DNA of 64,000 nucleotides from Planctomycetota bacterium (GCA_963205185.1 CAUJHZ010000058.1:62001-126000), one strand, 5' to 3'; counted from the stretch's first letter, positions 11,350-44,478 are shown. The notes: a model not told the origin generated them from the sequence alone. Program-made: numbers and translations.

Positions 11350-11448
11350 CCCGCCAACCCGTCTCACCCATGCACAGCCGCAGCGCCCGCCGCCGCGGCT
11401 GTGTCTGCGGGAATGCCGGACCAGTTCGTCGCCAGTACAATGAACATC

Positions 11449-12105
11449 ATGCTCAGGTGGGCCCGCCGCATTGCCATCTTCCTGCTGCTCGGCGCGATCG
11501 TGAATGTTGCGTTTGCGTGGGGATGTGCGCTTCCACGTAGGCGGCACTGGTCCAATGGCGCGCCACTTCCCAGCGATGAGCAGACGCGCTGGTGGCGTGC
11601 CAATTGCCCGGAGGGCGTGGTCGATACTCCAGACGAGGTGCATGTGACTCACGACATGGGCTATGAGGCGGTAGCCATGAGCGCGCAATCGCAGGCTGTT
11701 GCGGCCGGCTCGGACGTGATACGCGTCAGCGCGGGTTGGCCACTGATCAGCATGACGGGCGAACACTGGAGCGTCATGCAATGCACCGGTGACCACGTGT
11801 TCCCGATAGGACAGGTCGCAGTTGTGCCAAGGGGCCTGTGGGTATTCCGGCGGCCCACTGGGCACGGTTACGACCAAATCTATCACATCCCACTCGAACC
11901 AATTTGGGGAGGATTCCTCCTCAATGCAATCGGCTACGGGCTGGCGATCTGGCTCTGCGTCGCGATTCCGGCGTTCTTCACCAGATGGCATCGCACGAGA
12001 TGGCACCGATGCATCGCCTGCGGCTACCCGCGCGGCACCTCGCCCGTCTGCACCGAGTGCGGTGAGCCGTTGCCGAGTCCGTCGGATCGTGCGAGGAGCA
12101 GATGA
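11449..12105 (+). CDS. Array member 1: two-TM zinc ribbon membrane protein
   Basis: 218 aa. The start is set by alignment with its five neighbours, which all open ML-[RK]-W; an ATG three codons earlier is also open. TM1 is RIAIFLLLGAIVNVAFAWGC. An exported ~125-residue domain follows, with the motif IPLEPIWGGFLLNAIGYG leading into TM2. After a basic RWHRTRWHR stretch comes the ribbon CIACGYPRGTSPVCTECGEP. Positive charges place both ends in the cytoplasm. This ribbon style is common in planctomycete membrane proteins of unknown function. The extracytoplasmic part is the variable region of the family. Confidence 0.75.
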   Translation: MLRWARRIAIFLLLGAIVNVAFAWGCALPRRRHWSNGAPLPSDEQTRWWRANCPEGVVDTPDEVHVTHDMGYEAVAMSAQSQAVAAGSDVIRVSAGWPLISMTGEHWSVMQCTGDHVFPIGQVAVVPRGLWVFRRPTGHGYDQIYHIPLEPIWGGFLLNAIGYGLAIWLCVAIPAFFTRWHRTRWHRCIACGYPRGTSPVCTECGEPLPSPSDRARSR

Positions 12106-12117
12106 GGAACTGAGGCC

Positions 12118-12783
12118 GTGCTGAAGTGGTTTCGTCGCATCATCCTCTTCCTCCTGCCCGGCGCGATCGTGAACCTCGCGGTGGCGTGGGGATTGACATT
12201 CAAAGCCACTGACTTCAATGGCGAAATGTCGGTATTTCGTTCTCATCCGGACAATCCCACATGGATTGGCTGTTCGATCCGCCGTTTCGGAGTTGAACAG
12301 TTGGTGGTATGGGATCATCCTCCCGCGCCCGATTGGATCAACAGCCCCGTGATGACTCGGCAATGGAGCATCGTTCGGGATAGGCCGCCAACGGCAATGG
12401 GATCGACAATCTCTGAGGATGACTTTTGGATCGAGTACGCTCATGGATGGCCTTGGTTGAGCATGGTTGGTCGATTACGCATTGACGAGAACATCATCGA
12501 GGAATCAACTTGGGCAGTGCCTGCAACGCAATCCAACGTCTTCAACGCAGATGACCGTCTTGTGCCGCTTCACCCCATATGGCCAGGATTCATTATCAAC
12601 ACGATATGTTTCGGTATGGCTGGTTGGTTTGTCTTCGGCGCACCGTTCGCAATCCGGCGGTTGCTGCGTTCCAGACAAGGATCGTGTCTCATCTGCGGCT
12701 ACCCGCGCGGCACCTCGCCCGTCTGTACCGAATGCGGAGCACCACTGTCCAATTCGTCGGCTGCCCCGGCCGCGCGATGCTGA
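12118..12783 (+). CDS. Array member 2: two-TM zinc ribbon membrane protein
   Basis: 221 aa, GTG start 12 nt after member 1. TM1 RIILFLLPGAIVNLAVAWGL has a Pro in place of the Leu seen in others. The outer domain has DNPTWIGCSIRRFGVEQLVV and YAHGWPWLSMVGRLR, equivalent to the RFG and GWP motifs of the other members. VPLHPIWPGFIINTICFG leads to TM2 and then CLICGYPRGTSPVCTECGAP. The tail NSSAAPAARC differs from the PSPSARARSR tails of others. Its base composition is visibly less GC-rich than the flanking phage genes. Confidence 0.75.
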   Translation: MLKWFRRIILFLLPGAIVNLAVAWGLTFKATDFNGEMSVFRSHPDNPTWIGCSIRRFGVEQLVVWDHPPAPDWINSPVMTRQWSIVRDRPPTAMGSTISEDDFWIEYAHGWPWLSMVGRLRIDENIIEESTWAVPATQSNVFNADDRLVPLHPIWPGFIINTICFGMAGWFVFGAPFAIRRLLRSRQGSCLICGYPRGTSPVCTECGAPLSNSSAAPAARC

Positions 12784-12798
12784 TCGTAAGGTGAGTCC

Positions 12799-13446
12799 AT
12801 GCTGAAGTGGTCCGGCAGAATTCTCGCCTTCCTGGTGCTCGGCGCGATAATGAATGTCGCGGTGGCGTGGGGGTGTGTTGCGTGGCACTCGACTGCGGAT
12901 GAAAGCCCCGCGCGTTACCGTGATCCGCACAACAGTGAACTCCTCGTGAGCGTCACTCGGCGGTTTGGCGTTGAGTATGTGACAAACACGGGCGTATCCC
13001 GCGAGTGGAGCGTCCAAATCGGCAATTCTTCGATTCCGTATACTGGAAAAGTCTGGTGGCCAGCGGCGCGGGGCGAACAGCGCGTGCAGGTTTTCTGCGG
13101 TGCGGGCTGGCCAATGTTGGCGCTCACGACTTGGCGATGTTGGGCCGCCAATGACATGGAGCATTACTGGGGAATACCGTGGTTGCCCGATCGCGGCCCC
13201 GGACTGATGCAAATCGACCCGCCGGCGCTCCCGTTGTACCCGATTTGGTCCGGCTTCACGCTCAACACTCTGTTCTACGCGATCATCCTGAACGTCGCAT
13301 TCCGAGTACCGGTGGCGAGTCGAAGGTGGCTGCGCACGAAATGGAGTCTGTGCCCCGCCTGCGGCTATCCGCGCGGCACTTCGCCCGTCTGCACAGAGTG
13401 CGGCGATCCACTGCCGAGTCCGTCGGCTCGTGCAAGGAGCAGGTGA
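12799..13446 (+). CDS. Array member 3: two-TM zinc ribbon membrane protein
   Basis: 215 aa, ATG 15 nt after member 2. TM1 RILAFLVLGAIMNVAVAWGC. The outer domain keeps LLVSVTRRFGVEYVTNTGVS and VFCGAGWPMLALTTWRCW. LPLYPIWSGFTLNTLFYA precedes TM2, then CPACGYPRGTSPVCTECGDP. The 3' end is nearly identical at DNA level to members 1 and 4 (GAGTCCGTCG...GTGC.AGGAGCAG), evidence of recent duplication or gene conversion. Two cysteines in the outer domain could form a disulfide. Confidence 0.75.
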   Translation: MLKWSGRILAFLVLGAIMNVAVAWGCVAWHSTADESPARYRDPHNSELLVSVTRRFGVEYVTNTGVSREWSVQIGNSSIPYTGKVWWPAARGEQRVQVFCGAGWPMLALTTWRCWAANDMEHYWGIPWLPDRGPGLMQIDPPALPLYPIWSGFTLNTLFYAIILNVAFRVPVASRRWLRTKWSLCPACGYPRGTSPVCTECGDPLPSPSARARSR

Positions 13447-13458
13447 GGAACTTAGTCC

Positions 13459-14175
13459 GTGCTGAAGTGGTTTCGTCGCATCATCCTCTTCCTCCTGCTC
13501 GGCGCGATCGTGAACGTCGCGGTGGCGTGGGGTTGTGCTGCCCTCAATGCGGAGCACTTGGACCACTACTACACCCACTCCCAGCTCCGAATGAACAGGG
13601 CCGCTCAAGAAAACGGCGGGGGCTACGTTGATATCGTGCGTCGTTTTGGATTCGAACGGGTTCTTTACGATGTGATGACCCGAATGAAATTCTCGCGACT
13701 CGCTGATTTGCCGAGGTTTCCAGAGTACGAAGGTAGGGTCTGGTGGGACGAAGCAAAACTGAACATTGTGGACGGGCCGCAGGTAGCGGTCGGATGGCCG
13801 ATGTTCGCCTTTCGAGCGTCTCGTGAGATGAGGTTCCCGAACCGGTGGCCGGGATCTAACCAATACTCTGCTCGCCGCATCATCCAGCCGGAGTGGTATG
13901 GCGCCTTGGACCTCTCTGCAATCTCCGGCAGCAGTGCATCGCGATCGCCTGTGGTTTTGCCCTATCAACCTCTGCCGGTCGGCCTCGCGACCAACACGCT
14001 GTTGCTCGGCGGCATCACCGCGAGTGTGTACTACGGGTTTGGGTTCGCGCGCCGAACGCTGCGCGTGCGCGCTGGCCGCTGCCCCGCTTGTGGCTACCCG
14101 CGCGGCACCTCGCCCGTCTGTACCGAATGCGGCGAACGGCTGGCATCTCCGTCGGCTCGTGCGAGGAGCAGTTGA
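13459..14175 (+). CDS. Array member 4: two-TM zinc ribbon membrane protein
   Basis: 238 aa, GTG start 12 nt after member 3. TM1 RIILFLLLGAIVNVAVAWGC is nearly identical to member 2. Outer motifs: YVDIVRRFGFERVLYDVMTR, the EGRVWWDEAK patch shared with member 3 (TGKVWWPAA), and VAVGWPMFAFRASREM. The pre-TM2 motif is LPYQPLPVGLATNTLLLGGI, the most divergent of the set (PIW replaced by PLP). Ribbon CPACGYPRGTSPVCTECGER. Confidence 0.75.
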   Translation: MLKWFRRIILFLLLGAIVNVAVAWGCAALNAEHLDHYYTHSQLRMNRAAQENGGGYVDIVRRFGFERVLYDVMTRMKFSRLADLPRFPEYEGRVWWDEAKLNIVDGPQVAVGWPMFAFRASREMRFPNRWPGSNQYSARRIIQPEWYGALDLSAISGSSASRSPVVLPYQPLPVGLATNTLLLGGITASVYYGFGFARRTLRVRAGRCPACGYPRGTSPVCTECGERLASPSARARSS

Positions 14176-14187
14176 GGAGGAAGGTCC

Positions 14188-14904
14188 ATGCTGAAATGGT
14201 CCGGTCGAATTCTCGTCTTCCTGCTGATCGGCGCGATTCTCAATGTCGGGGTGGCGTGGTGGCTCGGCTGGCGCGTGCTCTATCAGCCTGGCTCGCTTCA
14301 AATCACGAACGAACCGATGGAGCCGGGCGAGTTTGTGCCTCAGGAGTTTCGCAACGAGTTGCTTGGGCCGGCCGGCCTGTCGATCAGCCGCACGCGCCAG
14401 TTTGGCGCGGATCACGTGCAGGTGCACAAGGGAACAACCATGCGCTGGGCCGACCTGCCGGTGATTCCGTTGGACACCCTCTGGCCGCACTGGGGCCCGC
14501 TCGCCGGCCGTGAGCCGCGTGAGATCTATGAATCGATGACAAATCCCATCGGCCACACGGCGCGCGGCTGGCCGATGGTCTCGATGTGGTGCGCGTTCGA
14601 GCAGGGAACGCACGGCCCCGTTCAGGGCGGCATCCATCTCGGTCACAAGCAGACGCTTGACACCTTCATCGTCACCGACCTCGTCCTGCCCCTGCGGCCG
14701 ATCTGGACCGGCTTTGCCGTCAACACGGCCTTCTACGCGAGCGTCGCGTGGATACTCGTTGCCGTGCCGGCAGCGTGGTGCCGCCGCCGACGCATCCGGC
14801 GCGGCCTCTGCGGCGCCTGCGCCTATCCGCGCGGCACCTCGCCGGTCTGCACCGAATGCGGCGAGCCACTGCCGAGTCCGTCGGCCGGGGCGGCGCGATC
14901 CTGA
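14188..14904 (+). CDS. Array member 5: two-TM zinc ribbon membrane protein
   Basis: 238 aa, ATG with GAGGAGGAAGG upstream, 12 nt after member 4. TM1 RILVFLLIGAILNVGVAWWL. The outer domain has SISRTRQFGADHVQVHKGTT, ARGWPMVSMWCAFEQG and LPLRPIWTGFAVNTAFYASV before TM2. A run RRRRIRR precedes CGACAYPRGTSPVCTECGEP, in which the first ribbon half has A-Y in place of G-Y. The outer domain is longer than in member 3, showing that the exported region is the part that changes. Confidence 0.75.
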   Translation: MLKWSGRILVFLLIGAILNVGVAWWLGWRVLYQPGSLQITNEPMEPGEFVPQEFRNELLGPAGLSISRTRQFGADHVQVHKGTTMRWADLPVIPLDTLWPHWGPLAGREPREIYESMTNPIGHTARGWPMVSMWCAFEQGTHGPVQGGIHLGHKQTLDTFIVTDLVLPLRPIWTGFAVNTAFYASVAWILVAVPAAWCRRRRIRRGLCGACAYPRGTSPVCTECGEPLPSPSAGAARS

Positions 14905-14919
14905 CTGCGAGGTGTGTGC

Positions 14920-15549
14920 ATGCTGAAATGGTCCGGCCGAATTCTCGTCTTTCTGCTGATCGGCGCGATTCTCAACGTCGCGGTCGCCTGGTGCTGCGTA
15001 CTCACAATCAGCTGGCCCGCCCGGAACGCGGTTCATGATCCGACCAGCGAACAAGTGCACTGGTGGAAGCAGAATGCTCCCCACGGATTCGATCCCACTC
15101 CTGGCGGTGTCTCCTACCCAACGAAGGCGTTCGGGAGCGATGCGGCACACCTTTCGGGCACATCGTCTGACGAGCATGGAGGCAGATTGCACTACGGGTG
15201 GAGACTGCGCTCGGGTGTTCCGCTGCGGTGCTTTGAAGGGCAGCGTTGGATCGACTACACCAACGCACCCGCGAATGAGCACCGGCCAGTCACCATCGAA
15301 CGCGGCATGAAGGTGTGGCGACGGCGCGGCAACAATTACGACATTCCGGTCACACCCATCTGGGGCGGCATGATCGGCAATTCGCTGCTCTACGCCGCCA
15401 TTCCGTTCACACTGCTCTTCATCCCCCGGTGGTACTTGCGACGCCGACGCCTTCGCAAGCGTCTGTGTCCCGCATGCGGCTATCCGATGGGAGCGAGCAA
15501 TCGTTGCACCGAGTGCGGGGAGCCACTGCCGACCGAGACTGCCAAGTAG
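14920..15549 (+). CDS. Array member 6: two-TM zinc ribbon membrane protein
   Basis: 209 aa from ATG; an in-frame GTG two codons upstream is possible. TM1 RILVFLLIGAILNVAVAWCC matches member 5 nearly exactly. The outer domain has SYPTKAFGSDAAHLSGTSSD and IPVTPIWGGMIGNSLLYAAI. TM2 is followed by RRRRLRKR and the ribbon CPACGYPMGASNRCTECGEP, the only member in which PRGTSPV is replaced (PMGASNR). It ends the rightward block, eight bases before the stop of the convergent methyltransferase gene. Confidence 0.75.
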   Translation: MLKWSGRILVFLLIGAILNVAVAWCCVLTISWPARNAVHDPTSEQVHWWKQNAPHGFDPTPGGVSYPTKAFGSDAAHLSGTSSDEHGGRLHYGWRLRSGVPLRCFEGQRWIDYTNAPANEHRPVTIERGMKVWRRRGNNYDIPVTPIWGGMIGNSLLYAAIPFTLLFIPRWYLRRRRLRKRLCPACGYPMGASNRCTECGEPLPTETAK

Positions 15550-15557
15550 CGCCCGCA

Positions 15558-16874
15558 TCATGATGCACAACGCTCCGCCTTCTTCCCCGTGAACTGCTCG
15601 TACCTCTGCACGATGACATCGCAGTACGCCGGATCGAGTTCCATCAGGAACGCGCGGCGCTGCGTCTGCTCGGCGGCGATCAGCGTCGAACCCGATCCGC
15701 CGAAGAGATCAAGCACGTTCTCGCCGGCGTGGGACGAGTACTGCATGGCTCGCACGGCCAACTCGACCGGTTTCTCGGTCAAATGACACATTGACGCCGG
15801 GTTGACCTTCTTCACATGCCAGAGATCAGTCGCGTTGTTCGGCCCGAAGAATCGGTGCGCAGCGCCCTCGCGCCATCCGTAGAACGCGATCTCGAACGCG
15901 CCCATGAAGTCCTTGCGCGTCAGCACAGGGTGCTGCTTATCCCACACGATTCCCTGGCTGAAGTACAGGCCCGCGCGGTTGAGAGGCCCCGGGTAATTGC
16001 CCAAGTTGGCGTAGCCGCCCCAGATGTAGAAGCCGCCGCCTGGAATGAGCACGCGCGCCATGTTGCCGAACCACGCGTCGAGCATCTCGTCGAACGCTTC
16101 GTCGGTGACGAAGTCGTTGGCCAGCGGTCGGTCTTTCGCCCGCATCTTCTTCGTCGTGCGCTTCTTCTCGCCCTGGCGCGCGACATCGAACGACTGGTGG
16201 TGCGTGCGCTTCTTCTTCGACGCGGTGAAGGACGAGTTGCCCGCCGCGATCGCGTTGTTCGATCGCGGCTCCACCTTCACGTTGTACGGCGGATCGGTGT
16301 TGACGAGGTGAATCGGCTGGCCATCGAGCAGTCGATCGACATCGGCCGCGCTGGCGCTGTCGCCGCACAGCAATCGGTGCTCACCGAGAATCCACAGATC
16401 GCCGCGCTTCGTGATCGGCTCATCGGGCGGCTCGGGAACCGCATCAGGATCGGTCAACCCTTCCTGCACGCCCGGGTCGAAGATCTTCGCGAGGTCATCG
16501 GCGCTGAAGCCGAGGCTCGACCAGTCGAATCCGGCGCCTTGGAGTTCGGCCATCTCGATCGGCAGCAATTCCATGTTCCACTCGGCCAGTTCGGCCGACT
16601 TGTTGTCGGCGATCCGGTACGCGCGCACCTGCTCGGGCTTGAGATCAGTCGCGACATGGACGGGCACCTTCTCGAGCCCGAGGCGCTGCGCGGCCTTCCA
16701 TCGCGTGTGGCCGCAGATGATCACGCCGTCGCCATCGACCACGATCGGCTGCCGCCAGCCGAAAGCCTGGATGCTGTTCATCACCGCTTCGATGGCGTCG
16801 TCGTTGAGCCGCGGGTTCTTTTCATAGGGTCTGATCTCGGTGATGGGGCGAAGTTCAACCTTGAACGCGTTCAT
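15558..16874 (-). CDS. ParB-domain DNA methyltransferase fusion
   Basis: 438 aa from an ATG with AAGGAGAA upstream; the frame stays open upstream, but that part is Arg/Gly-rich noise. Residues 1-~105 are a ParB/Srx fold (ITEIRPYEKNPRLNDDAIEA, CGHTRWKAAQRLGL). After a linker comes a methyltransferase with TDPPYNVK before DLFGGSGSTLIAAEQ. This motif order is that of beta-class N4-cytosine/N6-adenine methyltransferases. Such fusions are frequent in phages and mobile islands, usually without a restriction partner. They are thought to protect or mark phage DNA. It shares an ATGA overlap with the upstream gene. Confidence 0.9.
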   Translation of the reverse strand: MNAFKVELRPITEIRPYEKNPRLNDDAIEAVMNSIQAFGWRQPIVVDGDGVIICGHTRWKAAQRLGLEKVPVHVATDLKPEQVRAYRIADNKSAELAEWNMELLPIEMAELQGAGFDWSSLGFSADDLAKIFDPGVQEGLTDPDAVPEPPDEPITKRGDLWILGEHRLLCGDSASAADVDRLLDGQPIHLVNTDPPYNVKVEPRSNNAIAAGNSSFTASKKKRTHHQSFDVARQGEKKRTTKKMRAKDRPLANDFVTDEAFDEMLDAWFGNMARVLIPGGGFYIWGGYANLGNYPGPLNRAGLYFSQGIVWDKQHPVLTRKDFMGAFEIAFYGWREGAAHRFFGPNNATDLWHVKKVNPASMCHLTEKPVELAVRAMQYSSHAGENVLDLFGGSGSTLIAAEQTQRRAFLMELDPAYCDVIVQRYEQFTGKKAERCAS

Positions 16875-27038: not shown

Positions 27039-29987
27039 TCAGGCCAGCTGGGGTGTGGCGTCGATGCTCAGGCCGAGTTCCTTGTACATCTTCGATGCCT
27101 GGGGCTCCTTCACACCCATGATTTCAGCCGCCCGCTTCTGCAGCCCCTCTCCGGGCTCGAATCCTTCCTCCCTCGCGATCGTGTCGGCGAGTTGCCAGAG
27201 TTCGCGGCTGCACGCGTCGACTTTGAGCGCCTCAGCTTCTTCGATTGCGGAATCTGATAGGTTGCAGTGCTGTAGCAGCAGCCGACTCCCGCCCTCGCTC
27301 TCAGCACGTGCGATTCCGAGCGATAGCGTCTTCCGGAGTTCTCGGATGTTGCCGGGCCAGTCATGACGAAGAAAGGCGACGAGGCATCGTTCGTCTACGC
27401 GTTTCGCTGCCGCATAGTGCCGAGCCAACAGCAGAATGTCGCCGCGTCTTTCGCGGAGCGGCGGAATCCGTATCGTGATCGCCAGCCGGTCCGCGAGATC
27501 GCGCCGAAGCCTTCCCTCCGCCACCGCGGCGTCGATATCGGCATTTGTCGCGAAGATGCATCGCACATCGGGCGTGAACGAGTCGCCTCCGACGCGCTGG
27601 ACCTCGCGCCGGTCGAGTACCGAGAGGAAAATGACCTGCAGTTCTGCAGACATGGTCGCGAACTCGTCGACGAACAACGTCCCGCCATGCGCGTGCTGGA
27701 GATGGCCAAGTCGACCCTTCGGGTCGACGCCTGTGACTCCATGCCCCTTTCCAAACCCGATCCACTCGCCGCGCTGGATGTTGAGGTCGCCGCCGCTCCC
27801 GCCCGCATTGACTACGCGGAATACCCTCCCGGACCGATCGCTCGACCGGTGGATCAGTTCCGCGATGTGGGTCTTGCCGACGCCGGGCTCGCCGAGGATC
27901 AAAACGTGTGCGAGACCGTCGATCTTGTTCGCGTGATGAATCTGCTCGAACACCTCGAGGATGCCCGGGCTGGTCCCGATCACGCGGCGATCCGGATCAA
28001 TCCTTGTGCGGTACTCGCGCTGCGCCTCTCGACGCTTTCGGCTGATTGGTGTCGTCGGGCGCGGCTCGATGCGCTGCGAGGGCGTCCTCGCGCGCCGGGC
28101 ATCAATCGTGAGTATCACATTGCGCTCGGCTCCGTACTTCACGAATCGCAGGGCGACGCCATTGCGCCCAGCCGGACGCTCGGCGACAAGTTCCTCGCCC
28201 GGCGCGAGATCCTGGGCGTCCCCTTCTCCACCGTCGAAAAGGCTGCCCGCGGCGCTGGTCGAGAGGCTCGGGGCCGCCCCAAGTCCCCGGTTCCTGACGA
28301 CGACCCCCGACTCGCTCTGGCCGACCTGCAGGCTGGGCCACACCGGAAGGCCGAACTGTTCGAGCAGCGCGTCGTCCAGCTCTGCGAAGGTCGACACCGG
28401 CTCTCGAAGCACTCGATCGCTCTGTTGCGGTCGAAGCGGAATGCGCTTCGCGGCGATCAGCCGAAGTGACGCAGGCAGGCGGTGATGCATTGGCGGCAGC
28501 TCCGCGATTGCCGCGACGCACCACTGCAACTGTTCGAGCAGCGGTCGCAGGTCGCCCGTCGCCGCAATGAGGCGCGCGTGGAGGGCCGGAAGGAGCTTGG
28601 CGAGCACGGCGATGATGGCGTCGAGTGAGAGGTCGTCGAGCCGCATCCTCAGCTTGCGGACACGAATGCACTCTGCTGGGATTTCAACTTCCCACGCCTC
28701 AGCCGGCTGCTCCAACGCCCACGCGACGAGTTCCGCCTCCACCAAAGCACGGTACTCGGCGGGAATGCGCTGAAGCGCATCACAACACGCCGTCGATGCG
28801 ATCTCGCAGATTCGGGCCGATTTCGCATCGCTGCGGCACGCGCCCAGCAGTGCCGGGAGCCGTTGCGGCGCGCTGATTGCGATGTCACGGACGATGGATG
28901 CGGCTTCCCTTGCGATATCCTCTGCCTTCGCGAGCTCATCGAGTGCGCGAAGGTGGGGATTCCAGTGCTTCCAGTCATCGCTGAAGTCGGCGGTGTGGAG
29001 GAACTCCGTGCGAACTTCGGGCGCGGCCATCACCTCGCGATACGGAGCGAGATCGACCATATCAATGAACATCTCGTCCGCCAAGGCGAGGTCGTCGAGG
29101 GATCGCGGCACATGCGTGTAGTAATCCGCGTCGAGAATCGTCCGGACGGTCGTGTCGACAAGTTGGTAGAATGCCCGCGCCTGATCTTCTGCAGTAGTCG
29201 GTTCCTTTTTGTAATGGATTCTCGGGAAGCGGAGTCGGAGGGATCCGCTCAGGCCACGAAGAAAAAAGCGTATCAGAAGACTTCCGGAGATCGACGCTGC
29301 GGAGACTTCAACATCCGAATCGAACGACTCGATGGTCACCTTCGGATCAGTAAGAATCTCGCTCAACCGCTCGGCCGCGGGATCGAGATACTGTCGGCTC
29401 TGGAACGACGCGTGGTCGATGCTGCGGTACTGCACCCCAGAAGGACCGGCAAACCGCAATTTGTAGAGACGATCGCTGAATCGGCTGAAGCAAAGCGTGC
29501 GGAGTTTCTCGAGGTCGAACTGCTCCTTTGTAACGGAGTCCTTCGGGATTCCGAGATTGGTGGCGTTGAACTCGTAGAGGATCTCGTCGGTGATCCTGCG
29601 TCCACCACCCGTCGCGGTGAACTTCAGCATCCCGCGGTCGTCGCGGGAGTACTGAACATTCACCGTGTCGACGATGACGTTCTGCCACGAGTACCAGAGA
29701 GGCCTGCGCGCGTCGTAGTCATAGGTGCGCACCGACAGGTCGTTCTGCAGTCCAAGGACGACGGTGGCGGAGTCCGCGTTGCCAATCTGAAGCGTGGCGA
29801 AGACGCCGAATCGAATAGTGGGTGACAGCCACGCTTGACCGAGACCCCGCTCGATCCGTTCCCGATCGAAAGGCACAGTCGATCGGTACGACTGGACAGT
29901 GACCTCCCTCTGGTCGAGTACGCTCTCGTCGCGAGGTCCGACAGCAAGTGGCTGAATGTGTGCTGAAGGGTCGTAGGTGGAGGGCAT
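27039..29987 (-). CDS. Large AAA+ protein related to sigma-54 activators, degenerate GAFTGA loop
   Basis: 982 aa from the ATG with GAAAGGA upstream. About 690 residues of unrecognised sequence come first. The AAA+ domain has Walker A GEPGVGKT near 700, Walker B GGTLFVDEF near 772, ATNADIDAAV and the PPLRERRGDI arginine region. DWPGNIRELRKTL, the usual NtrC-class junction, follows. The sigma-54 contact loop GAFTGA is replaced by GHGVTG near 750, so classical sigma-54 activation is doubtful. The end, QKRAAEIMGVKEPQASKMYK, is a possible HTH. Its N-terminus does not look like REC, GAF or PAS. It could be a phage regulator or a nucleotide-driven defence sensor. Confidence 0.82.
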   Translation of the reverse strand: MPSTYDPSAHIQPLAVGPRDESVLDQREVTVQSYRSTVPFDRERIERGLGQAWLSPTIRFGVFATLQIGNADSATVVLGLQNDLSVRTYDYDARRPLWYSWQNVIVDTVNVQYSRDDRGMLKFTATGGGRRITDEILYEFNATNLGIPKDSVTKEQFDLEKLRTLCFSRFSDRLYKLRFAGPSGVQYRSIDHASFQSRQYLDPAAERLSEILTDPKVTIESFDSDVEVSAASISGSLLIRFFLRGLSGSLRLRFPRIHYKKEPTTAEDQARAFYQLVDTTVRTILDADYYTHVPRSLDDLALADEMFIDMVDLAPYREVMAAPEVRTEFLHTADFSDDWKHWNPHLRALDELAKAEDIAREAASIVRDIAISAPQRLPALLGACRSDAKSARICEIASTACCDALQRIPAEYRALVEAELVAWALEQPAEAWEVEIPAECIRVRKLRMRLDDLSLDAIIAVLAKLLPALHARLIAATGDLRPLLEQLQWCVAAIAELPPMHHRLPASLRLIAAKRIPLRPQQSDRVLREPVSTFAELDDALLEQFGLPVWPSLQVGQSESGVVVRNRGLGAAPSLSTSAAGSLFDGGEGDAQDLAPGEELVAERPAGRNGVALRFVKYGAERNVILTIDARRARTPSQRIEPRPTTPISRKRREAQREYRTRIDPDRRVIGTSPGILEVFEQIHHANKIDGLAHVLILGEPGVGKTHIAELIHRSSDRSGRVFRVVNAGGSGGDLNIQRGEWIGFGKGHGVTGVDPKGRLGHLQHAHGGTLFVDEFATMSAELQVIFLSVLDRREVQRVGGDSFTPDVRCIFATNADIDAAVAEGRLRRDLADRLAITIRIPPLRERRGDILLLARHYAAAKRVDERCLVAFLRHDWPGNIRELRKTLSLGIARAESEGGSRLLLQHCNLSDSAIEEAEALKVDACSRELWQLADTIAREEGFEPGEGLQKRAAEIMGVKEPQASKMYKELGLSIDATPQLA

Positions 29988-30343: not shown

Positions 30344-31405
30344 ATGGCACTCTGGCTGAACCGATCGGGTCGGCACTGCGAGCACGAGGGCAAGTTCCTC
30401 GATGACAACCGAGTGTACCTCACCTGGGGCGGGCTCAATCGGGATCTCGGCCCATTGCGCAGTCGAGAGGAACTCCTCACGGTTCTCGAGGATGTCTATC
30501 CGAAGTTCACGCGGGGACACCGAGTGCAGAACTCGGGCCAAATCTGGGCATTCGCCCGCAAGATGGCCCCCGGCGACTGGGTGGCCGTGCCGAGCAAGCG
30601 CAAGACCATCCACATCGGCGAGATCACCGGAGACTACACCTTCCACCCGAAAGCGGAGAACCCGTACTACCACTCTCGCGCCGTGAAGTGGCTCGCCACC
30701 GACATCCCGCGCACGAACTTCGACCAAGACATCCTCAACTCCCTCGGCGCCTTCACGACCGTCTGTCAGATCAAGCGCAATGACGCCGAGGCCCGTGTGC
30801 GAGCGATGAAGGCCAACGATTGGAAGTCGACCGGCGCCAAGCCGCGGGCGATCGCTCCCACCAATGGCGAGGACGAGGAGACCGTCGAGCCGGCGGAGAC
30901 GGACCTCGACCTTGAGCAGATCGCGCGCGACCAGATCGCCCGCCACATTTACGCCAAGTTCGCCGGCCACGGCCTTGAGAGCCTCGTACAGGCCATCCTC
31001 GACGCTCAGGGCTTCACGACGTTTCGCAGCGACAAGGGCACCGACGGCGGCGTTGATCTCCTCGCCGCGCCCGACACGCTCGGATTCGGCTCCCCAAAGA
31101 TCTGTGTCCAAGTCAAGAGCCAGGCGACGCCGCTTGAGCGTGCAGTGCTCGATCAACTTCTGGGCACCATGCAACAGGTCGGCGCCGAACAGGGGCTGCT
31201 CGTCTGCTGGGGTGGCTTCAAGCCAACAATCATGCGGGAGGTCCGCCGCCTGTTCTTCAGGGTCCGCCTCTGGGACCAAAGCGATCTGATCGGCCAGTTC
31301 CTTGCCGTCTACGACAAACTTGACGAGGATCTCCGCGCTGAAGTCCCGCTCAAGCGGATTTGGGCTGTGGCGTCTCAGGAACAGCAAGAAGACGACGAGG
31401 AGTAG
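30344..31405 (+). CDS. mrr: Mrr-type restriction endonuclease with EVE-like N-terminal domain
   Basis: 353 aa from the ATG with GGAGG six bases upstream; ten more codons are open. Residues ~20-150 (FLDDNRVYLTWGGLNRDL, QIWAFARKMAPGDWVAVPSK, KTIHIGEITGDYTFHP) resemble the EVE-type reader domain that precedes some Mrr enzymes. A charged linker leads to the nuclease: HGLESLVQAILDAQGF, SDKGTDGGVDLLAAPD, KICVQVKSQ (D...Q-x-K catalytic set), LLVCWGGF. Mrr enzymes cut modified DNA. Its position upstream of hsdM suggests a combined barrier against both modified and unmodified DNA. Linked three bases before the hsdM start. Confidence 0.87.
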   Translation: MALWLNRSGRHCEHEGKFLDDNRVYLTWGGLNRDLGPLRSREELLTVLEDVYPKFTRGHRVQNSGQIWAFARKMAPGDWVAVPSKRKTIHIGEITGDYTFHPKAENPYYHSRAVKWLATDIPRTNFDQDILNSLGAFTTVCQIKRNDAEARVRAMKANDWKSTGAKPRAIAPTNGEDEETVEPAETDLDLEQIARDQIARHIYAKFAGHGLESLVQAILDAQGFTTFRSDKGTDGGVDLLAAPDTLGFGSPKICVQVKSQATPLERAVLDQLLGTMQQVGAEQGLLVCWGGFKPTIMREVRRLFFRVRLWDQSDLIGQFLAVYDKLDEDLRAEVPLKRIWAVASQEQQEDDEE

Positions 31406-31408
31406 CCT

Positions 31409-33047
<1,639 letters not shown>

Positions 33048-33058
<11 letters not shown>

Positions 33059-34367
33059 CGCCGTTCCCGAGGTTGAGCTTGGTCCGCTCTGTACGAAGAT
33101 CGGCAGTGGCGCAACGCCTCGAGGTGGGGAGAAGGTGTATCTCCCACACGGTGTTGCTGCGCTTATTCGCAGCCAGAATGTCTACAACGACGGCTTCACG
33201 ACTAACGGCTTGGTGTATCTGTCGGAGGAGCACGCATCCCAGCTCTGCAATGTCGAAGTTGAAGCTGGCGATGTGCTTCTCAATATCACAGGCGACTCTG
33301 TCGCGCGTTGCTGTCAGCCAGACCCTCGGGTGCTCCCCGCTCGAGTGAATCAGCACGTCGCGATCATCCGACCGCGACGTGACCAGCTTGATCCTGCATT
33401 CCTACGATACTTCCTCGTATCTCCTCGAATGCAGGCGCAGATGCTGGCGTGGGCGCACGCAGGGGCGACAAGGAATGCACTCACGAAGGGGATGATCGAA
33501 TCCTTCAAGGTTCCAAAGCCGGATATTTGCACACAGCGTCGCATCGCTGCGATCCTCGGTTCACTGGACGACAAGATCGAGTTGAACCGGCGGATGAACC
33601 GGACATTGGAACGGATGGCGCAGGCGCTGTTCAAGTCGTGGTTCATCGACTTCGACCCCGTCCGCGCCAAGGCCGAGGGCGATCCCACCGCCGGCGACCT
33701 ACCCACCCAGCTCGCCGCCCTCTTTCCCGACCGCCTCATCGACTCCGAACTCGGCCCGATTCCGGAGGGATGGAAACCTGGCAGGCTGGCAGATATCGCA
33801 GATAGCCCGCGCCGCGGAGTGAAGCCGGCGGACATTCCCCCCGCCACGCCGTACATTGGCCTCGAACACATGCCGCGGCGCAGCATCGCTCTCGACTCGT
33901 GGGGGCGAGCGGATGAGGTTGCCAGTGGTAAGTCTCTGTTTCGCAAGGGCGAGATACTCTTTGGCAAGCTCCGCCCGTACTTTCACAAGGTGGGCATTGC
34001 GCCCGTCGATGGAGTGTGCTCGACCGATATCGTGGTCATCGCACCCGAGGATGACCGCTGGCGTGGATTCGCGCTCTCGCTCGTATCGAGCAAGGCGTTC
34101 GTGGACTACACGGACTCGCACTCGGCAGGCACAAAGATGCCCCGCACGAACTGGACGGACATGGGGAACTACCCGGTCACGATACCTCCCGATGACGTTG
34201 CCGAGGCATTCCAGATTCGTGTGGCGTCGCTCCACGAGCGAATTAGAGTGGGAGTGCATCAGATTCGCGTCCTTACGGGCCTGCGCGATACGCTCTTGCC
34301 GAAACTTCTGAGCGGCGATGTTGAGGTACCGGAGGCTAAAGCAGCGGTTGAGGAGGTGGCGGAATGA
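33048..34367 (+). CDS. hsdS: Type I restriction-modification specificity subunit S
   Basis: 439 aa from the ATG inside the end of hsdM. It has two target-recognition domains, each starting with a conserved strand ([19 protein letters not shown] and [20 protein letters not shown]). Each ends with a long helix containing [18 protein letters not shown] or [18 protein letters not shown]. The first conserved helix is followed by [20 protein letters not shown], a typical HsdS phrase. The subunit reads the split DNA target; its sequence cannot be predicted here. The stop overlaps the next gene start (ATGA). Confidence 0.93.
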
Positions 34368-36040
34368 GGCGGGCGACGAGTGCCACAGCCCACTACCGGT
34401 GCGAATTCGACCTTCGCCCGCTGGGGTCCATTGACCAGCCGTGGTCTTCATTGGCCAAGTCGATCCGCCATTGGATCGAGCAGTCCCCCCAAATGGCGCC
34501 GCCGGAAACGAACGATGCATTCTTCGCCGGCTGGTTCTTCCGCAGCGGAGAGTGGAGGCCGCCCGGCGCCCGATACCACTATGTCCGAACCGCTAGTCTT
34601 GTAGGGAACGGCGACGATCGAGCGCCACAGTACTGGGCGGTTCGGTATGAGCATGATGACGACGAGCCGGCGAGGACGTGGCGCACCGACATCGGTATCA
34701 CGCGCATCAGTTCAACTGACTACCGATTCGCGCTGGCCATCGGCCACTTCGTGCGCGAGGGCTACATTGGGCGCGAACCCAAATCCCCGATGCCCACTGC
34801 CCCGCGACTCGTCGGGTGGCTCCTGCGATCGCCGGACTGGCGGGCATTCTCTGGCACGGAGCAGTTGCTCAGTGAGCCTCGCGTCCTCAACACAGGGGAC
34901 GGCGAGGGGTTCCGGCGAAGGCTGGAGGATCCGGACAGGGAGTGCCCCATCGTGCTGGTGTCGCGGGATTTTGACTCCGGGAAGTTTCTGATCGATCCGG
35001 GGCTGCTGGCGCGGAAACTCTCCGGCTCAGCATCGATTTACGAGTCCGCCTCGTCCGATCTGGACAGGGAACTCGAATGGTGCCTTGGTCGTCGTTTCAG
35101 TTGCTGGAACGGCATGGTGAGGGTGTATCAGCCCGAGCTTCGCTTCGATGGTCCAGCGGACGCGAGGAGGCACCGCTTCGTTCCCGGCCGCGCCATCGGG
35201 GAACTCGGCGTCGATACCGTCCTCGACATGCTCGTCCGGGGCGTCGCGCGCCGAGTTGGGGTAGCGAGGGCGGACACGATCGTTGCGCTTGAGGACATCG
35301 CGACGATCGATCGCGAACACCGGATGGCCACGCTGAAGGCAGAGGCTGGGGAGGCGGACCGCCACGAGTGGATCTCCCTGCTGGAGGAGACCAACAGCGA
35401 CCTGGAGGAACAGAACCGGAAGAAGGACGAGCGGATTCAGGCGCTCGAGAACGAGGTCGCCGACCTGAGCGACGCAGTATCCCGGCTTGAGTTCGACACG
35501 CGCTCCTTGCGGCAGCGTGCCACAAATGCGGAGCGCGCGGCGGCCGGCCTGCGGGCCCGGGCGGACGCCATCGCGGCGCTGGACCGCTTGCCGCAAAGCA
35601 TGCGAGAGGTCGTAAATGCAATCTCAGTCTTGCACCGGGACCGCATCGCGTTCACCGATCAGGCGCTTCGCACGGCGGACGAATGCGAATTCCGTCGGAT
35701 CAACGATACATGGACATGCCTGCGCGCAATGGCCACAACGCTCCATGATCTGTTCTTTCAGTCCGAAGATGTCGGCAACCTAGAGCAGCGTTTCTTCGAG
35801 AGCACTGGCTTTCGGTTGGCCATGACCGAGGGCGAGATGACCAAGGACAACAACAAGCTGATGCGGTTGCGGAAGGATGTATACAAGGGTACAGAGATCG
35901 ACATCACGCCCCACGTGAAGATCGATAAGGACTCGACGCGGGTGTACTTCTTCCCTCATCGCTCGGGAGAGACACAACTGATCGTGGTTGGCTACATCGG
36001 ACACCTGAAAACTGCGGGCACCAGGAGAAGGCGAAACTAA
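34364..36040 (+). CDS. Unrecognised coiled-coil protein inside the type I operon
   Basis: 558 aa. The N-terminal ~330 residues look like a globular enzyme-like domain (IRHWIEQSPQMAPPET, APRLVGWLLRSPDWRAF, PIVLVSRDFDSGKFLIDPGL). A coiled coil spans ~335-415 (EWISLLEETNSDLEEQNRKK, then heptads). The final domain, MTKDNNKLMRLRKDVYKGTE, DITPHVKIDKDSTRVYFFPH, TQLIVVGYIGHLKTAG, resembles RelE/ParE-like small folds that end some defence proteins. I cannot assign a family. Its ATGA overlap with hsdS and direct coupling to the rloC-like gene show it is a true operon member and not a shadow. Confidence 0.8.
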   Translation: MRRATSATAHYRCEFDLRPLGSIDQPWSSLAKSIRHWIEQSPQMAPPETNDAFFAGWFFRSGEWRPPGARYHYVRTASLVGNGDDRAPQYWAVRYEHDDDEPARTWRTDIGITRISSTDYRFALAIGHFVREGYIGREPKSPMPTAPRLVGWLLRSPDWRAFSGTEQLLSEPRVLNTGDGEGFRRRLEDPDRECPIVLVSRDFDSGKFLIDPGLLARKLSGSASIYESASSDLDRELEWCLGRRFSCWNGMVRVYQPELRFDGPADARRHRFVPGRAIGELGVDTVLDMLVRGVARRVGVARADTIVALEDIATIDREHRMATLKAEAGEADRHEWISLLEETNSDLEEQNRKKDERIQALENEVADLSDAVSRLEFDTRSLRQRATNAERAAAGLRARADAIAALDRLPQSMREVVNAISVLHRDRIAFTDQALRTADECEFRRINDTWTCLRAMATTLHDLFFQSEDVGNLEQRFFESTGFRLAMTEGEMTKDNNKLMRLRKDVYKGTEIDITPHVKIDKDSTRVYFFPHRSGETQLIVVGYIGHLKTAGTRRRRN

Positions 36041-36150
36041 TGGCCGACCGTCTCGACGAGTACGACCGCGTGCCCTTCCATCGCTGCGGCAGCAAACTGG
36101 GGCCCTCGCCCGCCGAAGCCGTCCCCAAGGGGTGCGGTGATGCCGATTGA
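36040..36150 (+). CDS. Possible 36-aa coupled mini-ORF
   Basis: The ATG overlaps the preceding stop (TAATG) and the frame runs 36 codons, ending 11 nt inside the next gene. The peptide is MADRLDEYDRVPFHRCGSKL, continuing [16 protein letters not shown]. It is unusually ordered for random sequence of this length, but no homologue comes to mind. Its main function may be to couple translation of the ATPase to the upstream gene, or it is a leftover gene end. Confidence 0.35.
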   Translation: MADRLDEYDRVPFHRCGSKLGPSPAEAVPKGCGDAD

Positions 36151-38418
36151 TCGCATCTCTAGGCTGCGGGACTACTGCGTCTTCCGGGACTTCACATGGC
36201 CCGCAGGTCTCAGCGACTTCGTACGGTACAACCTGATCTACGGGTGGAACGGCTCGGGCAAGACGACAATGAGCCGGTTGTTCCGTGACCTGGAACTTCG
36301 CAGGCCGCCGGCGATGGGAGCGGCAACGATTCGCATCAACGGCGGCGATGTCAGCGGATCGGAGTTTCCGCATGTCACGCTCCAAGTGCGGGTGTTCAAC
36401 CGCGACTTCGTCAATGAGAGCGTATTTTCCGTGAGCGGCGGTGATGTACCGCCGATCTTCGTGGTCGGGAAAGACAGCATCGAGAAGCAGAAGGAAGTCG
36501 ATGGGCTGAAGGGCGAACGGACGACTGCCGAAGCTTCGCTTACGAACGCGCGCGCCAAGAAGCAGCGGGCCGAGCAGACGTTCGACAAGTTCTGTCAGGA
36601 TCGAGCGAGAGGAATCAAGGATGTACTCAGATCGCCCGGTCCGAATCCGTACAACAACTACGACAAGTCCGACTTTCAGAGTCGTGCGCAGAAGATGACA
36701 ACGGATGGCGATGGTGCATCGCATCGACTGGCCGAAAGTGAGCTGGATACCTTGCGTGCGCAGATCGCAGCCAAGCCCAAGCCCAGAGTTCCAGAGTCTG
36801 CATACCGCCTACCGGAGACGAAGGGGCTGGCTGACGCAACGGCGCCGTTGCTCTCGACGACTGTCGTGTCGGCGGCGATCAAGACGTTGAAGGACGATCC
36901 CGCGCTCGCCGATTGGACGCGGAAAGGGCTTGGTCTGCACCGAGACACGCATGCGGAGAAGTGTCTGTTCTGTGAACAGCCCCTGCCGCCTGACCGCCTT
37001 GCAGATCTTGAAGCGCATTTCAGCGCTGAGTACGAGCAGTACCTCCGCCGACTGGATGAGCAGATCGAGGCCTTGAGGTCTGAATCCACACGGGCTGGCG
37101 CAGTCATTCTGCCGAAGCAGATCGAGGTGTACGATGATCTCGGCCAGGAGTACGCGGACGCCGAACAAAAGCTGCAGAAGGCCATCGAAGCCGTTCGTGC
37201 GTTTCTGGATGATCTCGTTCGGATCCTGGTCGACAAGCGGTCGCGGCCGTTCGATCGCCTCAGCCTGGACATCACCGTTCCCGATGTGGCGACGGACGCA
37301 GTCGATCGTCTGAACGGAGTCCTTCGCAAGCACAATCAGACGTGTGACGAGTTCGAATCCCGCATCGCTTCGTCGCGGGATCGACTCGCACTTGGTCTGA
37401 TCGCGGGCGCACTCGAGGAGTTCGTTCGGCTTCAAGATGCCGTGCAGTCAGCCCACGCAGCAATCGCGCCCGCGGAGCAGGACGTGCGGCGGCTCATCAA
37501 CGAGATCGAACGGCTAGAGCGAGAAATCGTCGAGCACCGTCGGCCGGCGGAGGAACTCAACGACGACCTGCGAAAGTACTTGGGCCACGGCGAGCTACAG
37601 CTGGCAATCATGGACACCGGATACAGCATTATGCGGAATGGTGTGCCCGCCGACATGCTCAGCGAAGGGGAGATGACAGCGATCGCACTCCTCTATTTCC
37701 TGAAGGCGCTGGAAGATCGCGGCTTCGACAAGCTGAATGGCGTGGTTGTCCTCGACGACCCGGTGTCCAGCCTTGACGCCAACGCCATGCACCTAGCGTT
37801 CAGCCTGATGCGGGAGCGTACTGCAGATGCTGGTCAACTCTTCGTACTCACGCACAACTTCGCTTACTTCCGCCAGGTGCGTAACTGGCTTCATCATGGA
37901 GTGAACAAGAAGCGCAAGAATCCAGCGAAACACAAGGCACGGTTCTACATGCTGCAATGTGCTGAGGAAAGCGGAAAGAGAACATCGGTACTGTGCCCAC
38001 TCGACCCGTTGCTGCTTACTTATGAGTCCGAATACCACTTTCTGTTCGCCTCTGTGTATCGGTTTGCCAATGGACCGATGCCCGATGGCCTGGAGGCATG
38101 CTACGGATTGCCGAATGTTGCCCGTCGATTGGTGGAAAGCTTCTTGGCGTTTCGGCACCCCGGTGCATTCGACAATCTGTGGGGCGCTCTGCGCGAGGTC
38201 TCCACCTCCGACGAAGCGAGGAAGGGCCGCATTCTGAATTTCGTACAGACACATTCGCACGGTCCGGGGACGGGGCAACCAGAACATGATCCGTCGATTC
38301 TCGGCGAGTCCAGATCGATTCTGCGGGAGGTTCTGGCGCTGATCGAATCGGAAGATTCCGAACACTATGCGGCGATGAAGAATCTCGTTGATCCTGGTGC
38401 CGACGCGGAGAACCCCGC

Positions 38419-38422
<4 letters not shown>
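36140..38422 (+). CDS. RloC/PrrC-like AAA_13 ATPase with zinc hook
   Basis: 760 aa from the ATG with AAGGGG upstream; a GTG one codon earlier is open. ABC-type ATPase head: [18 protein letters not shown] (Walker A, residues 35-42), [18 protein letters not shown] (signature), [16 protein letters not shown] (Walker B), [13 protein letters not shown]. Two coiled-coil arms are joined by [11 protein letters not shown], a zinc hook CxxC as in Rad50 and RloC. The C-terminal ~170 residues (after [12 protein letters not shown]) occupy the place of the anticodon nuclease in PrrC/RloC, but I cannot confirm its Arg/Glu/His set. Its placement inside hsd genes is the known PrrC arrangement, a guard against anti-restriction. 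Confidence 0.85.

Positions 38423-41514
<3,092 letters not shown>

Positions 41515-42885: not shown

Positions 42886-42889
<4 letters not shown>
42488..42889 (-). CDS. Small HTH protein coupled to the recombinase
   Basis: 133 aa. ISKLMALAIRFDQLLQDGVV, ANQSELARLAHVTQPRMTQI and MNLLNLAPDIQEEILHL form a ParB-like/KorB-like HTH. The start overlaps the recombinase stop (ATGA). Genes of this kind recur after large serine recombinases and DUF2924 in alphaproteobacterial and planctomycete islands; that statement is from general acquaintance, not a search. It may act as a partner in site synapsis or as a repressor. The gap 42273..42487 upstream of hsdR's neighbour contains no gene. Confidence 0.75.

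Positions 42890-44474
<1,585 letters not shown>

Positions 44475-44478
<4 letters not shown>

Follow-up and report, generated by a model that had tools for sequence, protein, structure and literature searches.

Comparison of related prophages shows that a tandem array of six membrane-protein genes fills the accessory cargo spot of a temperate phage lineage, of which a planctomycete genus carries several copies per genome. The six are members of a TM-exterior-TM-zinc ribbon family of the order Phycisphaerales, with which they share full-length homology, topology, and the tandem habit. The original prediction did not mention the more than 30 further relatives in the same genome, nor that the six are not most closely related to one another. 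Sequence comparison largely accounts for the making of the array, though not for its role. The family is very large and has no name, in an environmentally common bacterial order, and its use as prophage cargo offers a first handle on its role; since the copy number within one phage lineage is zero, one, or six, the array provides a natural comparison set.

The window (the whole 64-kb stretch of DNA analysed) holds the array at 11449-15549 on the + strand, as six consecutive open reading frames whose stop-to-start gaps of 12, 15, 12, 12, and 15 nt agree with the spacing originally described. The reading frames of gene 1 (11449-12105, with a further in-frame ATG at 11440), gene 2 (12118-12783, GTG start), gene 3 (12799-13446), gene 4 (13459-14175, GTG start), gene 5 (14188-14904), and gene 6 (14920-15549, with a GTG at 14914 as another start) are all intact. 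A wrong assembly join could conceivably lie inside the array, though the longest exact repeat there is 42 nt. Alignment of the six proteins recovers the predicted common frame, with the proline motif now read as P-[IL]-x-P-[IL]: TM1, exterior domain, proline motif, TM2, arginine-rich arm, and four-cysteine ribbon. Invariant residues fall in TM1, in a P-x-x-P / G / N block ahead of TM2, and in the ribbon (Cys-x-x-Cys ... Cys-x-x-Cys-Gly), and the exteriors differ strongly between paralogues, as had been noticed at the outset. The array genes match the full-length family profile (TM1, GWP, TM2, ribbon), GVP replacing GWP in gene 6. The family consensus reads FLLLGAIVNVAVAWG ... GWP ... LPxRPIWPGFAINTxFYA ... 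CxxCGYDLRG...CPECG; the window copies differ in being phage cargo and in that five of the six ribbons have CxxC-x-YPRGTSPVCTECG rather than the commoner CGYDLRG...CPECG.

AlphaFold2 models of gene 3 (pLDDT 85, pTM 0.80) and gene 5 (pLDDT 84, pTM 0.80), both built on alignments of 55-68 sequences, give a TM helix, a small beta-rich exterior domain, a second TM helix, and a C-terminal ribbon, and the proteins are predicted from their sequences and these helices to sit in the inner membrane. Fold searches with both models against PDB and BFVD returned no usable match (every E-value > 0.1). Searches of Pfam, NCBIfam, PHROGs, and PADLOC gave nothing beyond weak ribbon matches, with no named family there or in PDB, and a literature search found no paper on a TM-exterior-TM-ribbon family. 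The ribbon matches are weak across the whole family: the C-terminal four-cysteine ribbon is shared with Pfam DZR, Zn_ribbon_3, and Zn_Ribbon_1 at scores below the gathering cut-offs (for gene 1, Zn_Ribbon_1 12.7 against 25 bits and Zn_ribbon_3 12.3 against 27 bits), leaving the rest of the protein uncovered.

The prophage location first proposed is borne out by the neighbours of the array, which are phage genes for portal, terminase, ParB/methyltransferase, DUF3987 primase, helicase, and Sak4; a large serine recombinase lies at 42886-44478. Terminases 92-96% identical to that of the window recur in all four genus relatives searched. Terminase matches number 4-9 in each of the genomes G000-G004, and the closest of them reach 92-96% identity between species, which makes this lineage of sibling phages unusually successful within one genus. 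We mapped the window's phage genes onto the related loci, some of them known to come from metagenome assemblies and several on prophage contigs that stop at repeats, and called their genes with a home-made codon-usage caller; the mapped prophages share the order terminase, + strand operon, variable spot, and ParB/methyltransferase. The spot is bounded on the left by a phage gene (10771..11349, + strand) that is kept in nearly all mapped prophages and has no Pfam or PHROG match, and on the right by the ParB/DNA-methyltransferase gene (15558..16874, - strand; Pfam N6_N4_Mtase and ParB_N; phrog_498, E 8e-125).

Of the 19 prophages of the genus that could be scored at this spot, 10 hold family genes, the window with six and L113, L115, L116, L117, L119, L126, L128, L129, and L133 with one apiece. 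The other nine hold HNH_3 (L274, L275), Fic (L271), or unknown ORFs (L262, L263, L264, L270), or are empty (L273 and apparently L268). Copy number at the spot, which the original prediction had proposed to compare, thus varies between 0, 1, and 6. Presence of a family gene switches at least seven times on the methyltransferase tree of these 19 prophages, and cargo turnover is therefore fast. Variable content at a constant position, with conserved phage genes on either side, is what marks a moron or accessory locus, and the moron loci of temperate phages likewise swap unrelated cargo rapidly, HNH and Fic included; here, by contrast, members of one host family are present in more than half of the scorable prophages, and in the window they form a six-gene mosaic.

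A stem-loop (ACAGCCGC...GCGGCTGT; 11364..11413, + strand) separates the cargo from the phage gene upstream and is possibly a terminator or attenuator, or marks an edge of the spot. A pattern scan places this hairpin ahead of the family gene both in the window and in seven of the nine single-gene prophages, ahead of unrelated cargo in L263, and at the empty spot of L273. Its RNA fold of -29.2 kcal/mol has a z of only -1.7 against shuffles and so is unexceptional for its base composition. A sigma-70 consensus scan found no promoter; planctomycete promoters may differ from that consensus. Farther along the window, beside phage genes, we noted a sigma-54-interaction AAA+ protein (27039-29987, - strand) and a locus encoding an AAA_13 protein together with a type I restriction subunit of HsdR type (30344-41514, + strand).

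Whereas the array had been taken for a phage-specific unit, its family proves to be mostly chromosomal and multi-copy, the array itself sitting in a prophage. We found the family in 53 of 61 Phycisphaerales genomes, often in 20 to at least 48 copies each (counts of 48 are lower bounds, 48 candidates having been scored and many genomes standing at or near that number). Across 149 genomes drawn evenly from the phylum, every clear match belonged to the order, and a single weak one lay outside it. The six-row profile marks 38 places in the array's own genome, its six genes included, and chromosomal tandem arrays of nine genes (L112, in G003) and six genes (L140, own genome) occur. A pattern scan of IMG/VR found no family member, nor did a profile search of 80 related viral contigs with kindred terminases, 52 of which span the spot. 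A phage-born family is rejected on these grounds, and because the family is order-wide in hosts and absent from the viral sets searched, we infer that transfer ran from host to phage.

The size of this host repertoire bears on a kind of host conversion other than exclusion. The proteins would act as sensors or adaptors in the membrane, with a cytoplasmic partner common to their ribbons, and the prophage copies would rewire that host system, which might be envelope stress or the handling of surface proteins. The high copy number per host genome would fit such a role, as would the invariant ribbon cysteines, arginine-rich arm, and TM2 beside very different exteriors, and the ankyrin repeats that follow the ribbon in some chromosomal members. 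Against it, a neighbour search across the family found no consistent partner gene beyond orthologous loci, what recurred beside family members being genes of the prophages or of orthologous chromosomal loci and, in the own genome, an FG-GAP-linked group. We regard it as unlikely, if a serious contender.

The making of the array can be read from a tree of 39 family members of the genus. Gene 5 groups with a copy in the sister species G003 (L110, 88%) and with a chromosomal copy in G004 (L125, 74%); gene 3 groups with its orthologue, which prophage L116 carries as a single gene (78% amino acid identity), and gene 6 with the single gene of prophage L113. With lower support, gene 2 lies near the second gene of L110, its nearest kin, and gene 4 near the chromosomal copies L114, L138, and L127. 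Nine switches between phage and chromosome labels are seen across the tree, and well-supported branches force no fewer than four of them. Gene 3 and the L116 gene are separated by a dS of 0.36, and since phage core genes mostly give 0.25-0.58, gene 3 is probably an old resident of the phage lineage.

This tree decides against the simplest reading of the locus, that one phage gene was duplicated in place and the exteriors diversified afterward. Tandem order, equal spacing, and near-identical ends are what such a history would leave, and repeated duplication or gene conversion had originally been proposed from the ends. Forcing the six into a single clade costs 328 log-likelihood units (p-AU 4e-54), a result that applies to most of the sequence, the protein columns possibly being mosaic themselves; genes 3, 5, and 6 have closer kin outside the array than inside, and the exteriors are purified rather than diversifying. 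In-place duplication of one gene is rejected accordingly, and we consider its version with later diversification extremely improbable; of the original pair of mechanisms, simple repeated duplication falls, and recombination of the ends stands.

That recombination is visible in the shared ends, whose near-identity holds for some pairs: the first 75 nt are 96% identical in genes 2 and 4 and 91% in genes 5 and 6, the other pairs compared giving 76-85%. These leader pairings do not track the exteriors. The first 75 nt of gene 1 are 91% identical to the L116 single gene, as against 76-77% to genes 2 and 3. Gene 1 thus carries the leader of the single-gene prophages, and gene 6 the ...AK-stop 3' end found in most of them, unlike genes 1-5, which end in linker-type tails such as PSARARSR. 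An example of the shared linker (12060..12128, + strand) comprises a gene end with a PSxRARSR tail, a short gap, and the start of the next gene; variants of two classes occupy the other four junctions, and the same kind joins the two genes of L110. The longest exact repeats among the array genes measure 42, 41, and 33 nt. A 796-nt block, running from inside the ribbon of gene 4 through the linker and gene 5, is 90.6% identical to the two-gene array of L110, in which the gene upstream of the gene 5 match is of a different type from gene 4. L110 retains the phage hairpin together with a ~45-nt remnant of the upstream phage gene, and it is for this reason a prophage-derived piece, now lying among chromosomal genes between REP-like repeats. 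From these mosaics we infer that the shared ends were exchanged by homologous recombination.

The original prediction also held the exteriors to be variable; the comparison between species does not support their diversification. Between gene 5 and L110 the exterior is 92% identical (dN/dS 0.16) and the ribbon with its tail 63%; between gene 5 and L125 the exterior is 82% identical (dN/dS 0.20), as against 56% for TM1, 65% for TM2, and 64% for the ribbon, so that the exterior of this gene, about 140 residues long and the best conserved of the types, has changed less than its ends. Gene 3 and the L116 gene give an exterior dN/dS of 0.47, and the closest between-species pairs range from 0.15 to 0.47, values that come from few pairs and a simple counting method, pairs such as gene 6 and L113 being saturated and saying little. 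The exteriors are, by these alignments, stable types, unlike between paralogues, conserved between species, and under purifying selection where a type can be measured. Their conservation between species means that there is no sign of diversifying selection, and none was seen in pairs close enough to measure.

Selection and recombination together weigh on a reading in which the array is a passenger. An expanded host family would recombine wherever a copy sits, the prophage being another landing place; given so highly expanded a family and such long conserved ends, tandem arrays would arise without benefit to the phage. The family is indeed habitually tandem on chromosomal contigs, as the arrays of nine and six genes attest, the prophage-derived pair sits between REP-like repeats in the G003 chromosome, and the conserved ends share exact repeats of up to 42 nt. 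Such passive hitch-hiking sits poorly with six intact frames, with purifying selection on exterior types, and with the presence of a family gene at this spot in 10 of the 19 prophages scored, and we judge it unlikely.

We favor instead an account in which the cargo was drawn from the lineage-specific host family of inner-membrane proteins. The spot first held one family gene, probably a relative of gene 3, to which already diverged genes from other prophages and the chromosome were added and reshuffled, probably by homologous recombination at the leader/TM1 and ribbon/linker ends. Given recombination between conserved ends, the shared frame would serve as the recombination handle and the exterior types would be the units collected. 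The role of the array would be to convert the envelope of the lysogen, with each exterior type blocking or altering a particular partner outside the inner membrane. As a whole, this explanation of a host-derived cargo array, assembled by recombination at its ends and acting on the envelope, is the best we can offer, and we hold it tentatively, at somewhat below an even chance.

Surface recognition, exclusion, or immunity of many specificities, as first suggested, are possible roles in view of the context, and the most plausible target would be competing phages at the step of DNA entry. We favor exclusion at the envelope because of the accessory spot, the HNH and Fic genes that fill it elsewhere, the several sibling prophages per genome, and the predicted inner-membrane topology, with SieA and DicB as precedents. 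SieA of P22 is an inner-membrane prophage protein that blocks DNA delivery of other phages, and its types, less than 30% identical (PMC10883804), resemble the array in being strongly diverged on one topology; DicB acts on an inner-membrane receptor (PMC6832061). SieA, HK97 gp15, and DicB (acting on ManYZ) are all prophage-encoded accessory proteins at the inner membrane, as the array proteins are predicted to be, although SieA has three TM helices and the array proteins two. To our knowledge, SieA has no ribbon and forms no six-gene arrays. Searches of the PHROGs, PADLOC, PDB, and BFVD libraries gave no sequence or fold match to known exclusion proteins of the SieA/gp15 type.

Several observations count against exclusion: the family has no match among the exclusion and defence families already described, nor any fold match, and the exteriors lack the excess of amino acid changes that an allele-specific arms race might leave. 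The family is also plentiful in genomes and loci without this phage, and its basic role must therefore be a host one. Superinfection exclusion at the envelope is, on this balance of analogy and context, the likeliest single function, though doubtful; if true, host genes would here have been assembled into an exclusion cassette of many specificities. More speculatively, and in our estimate improbable, the order may hold a large combinatorial repertoire of membrane receptors, in which many stable exterior types share a constant TM/ribbon frame. Its temperate phages would capture members of this repertoire and, with the constant ends as recombination handles, stack them in exchangeable arrays that give the lysogen specificities for recognizing or excluding rival phages.

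The chromosomal members offer some further observations. In the array's own genome, five weaker family relatives (L142, L144, L145, L153, and L156) have secreted-looking proteins of one group nearby, the longest of which bears an FG-GAP repeat. Two chromosomal relatives carry long extra parts (L145:7723-9840 and L153:7368-9284), with ankyrin repeats in the C-terminal half of the L145 protein. At a chromosomal site adjoining an ABC transporter/membrane-fusion operon (L114, L127, L138), the types of family gene differ by species; L118, where the family gene adjoins a gene also found in L138, is part of the same variable site, which holds two family genes in G000 and one elsewhere. Family genes in G003 and G000 (L110:6856-11259, and also L136, L137, and L148) are bordered by repeated CGTACCTGTCCC / GGGACAGGTACG motifs, which in places are spaced by ~270 bp and resemble REP elements tied to REP-associated transposases.
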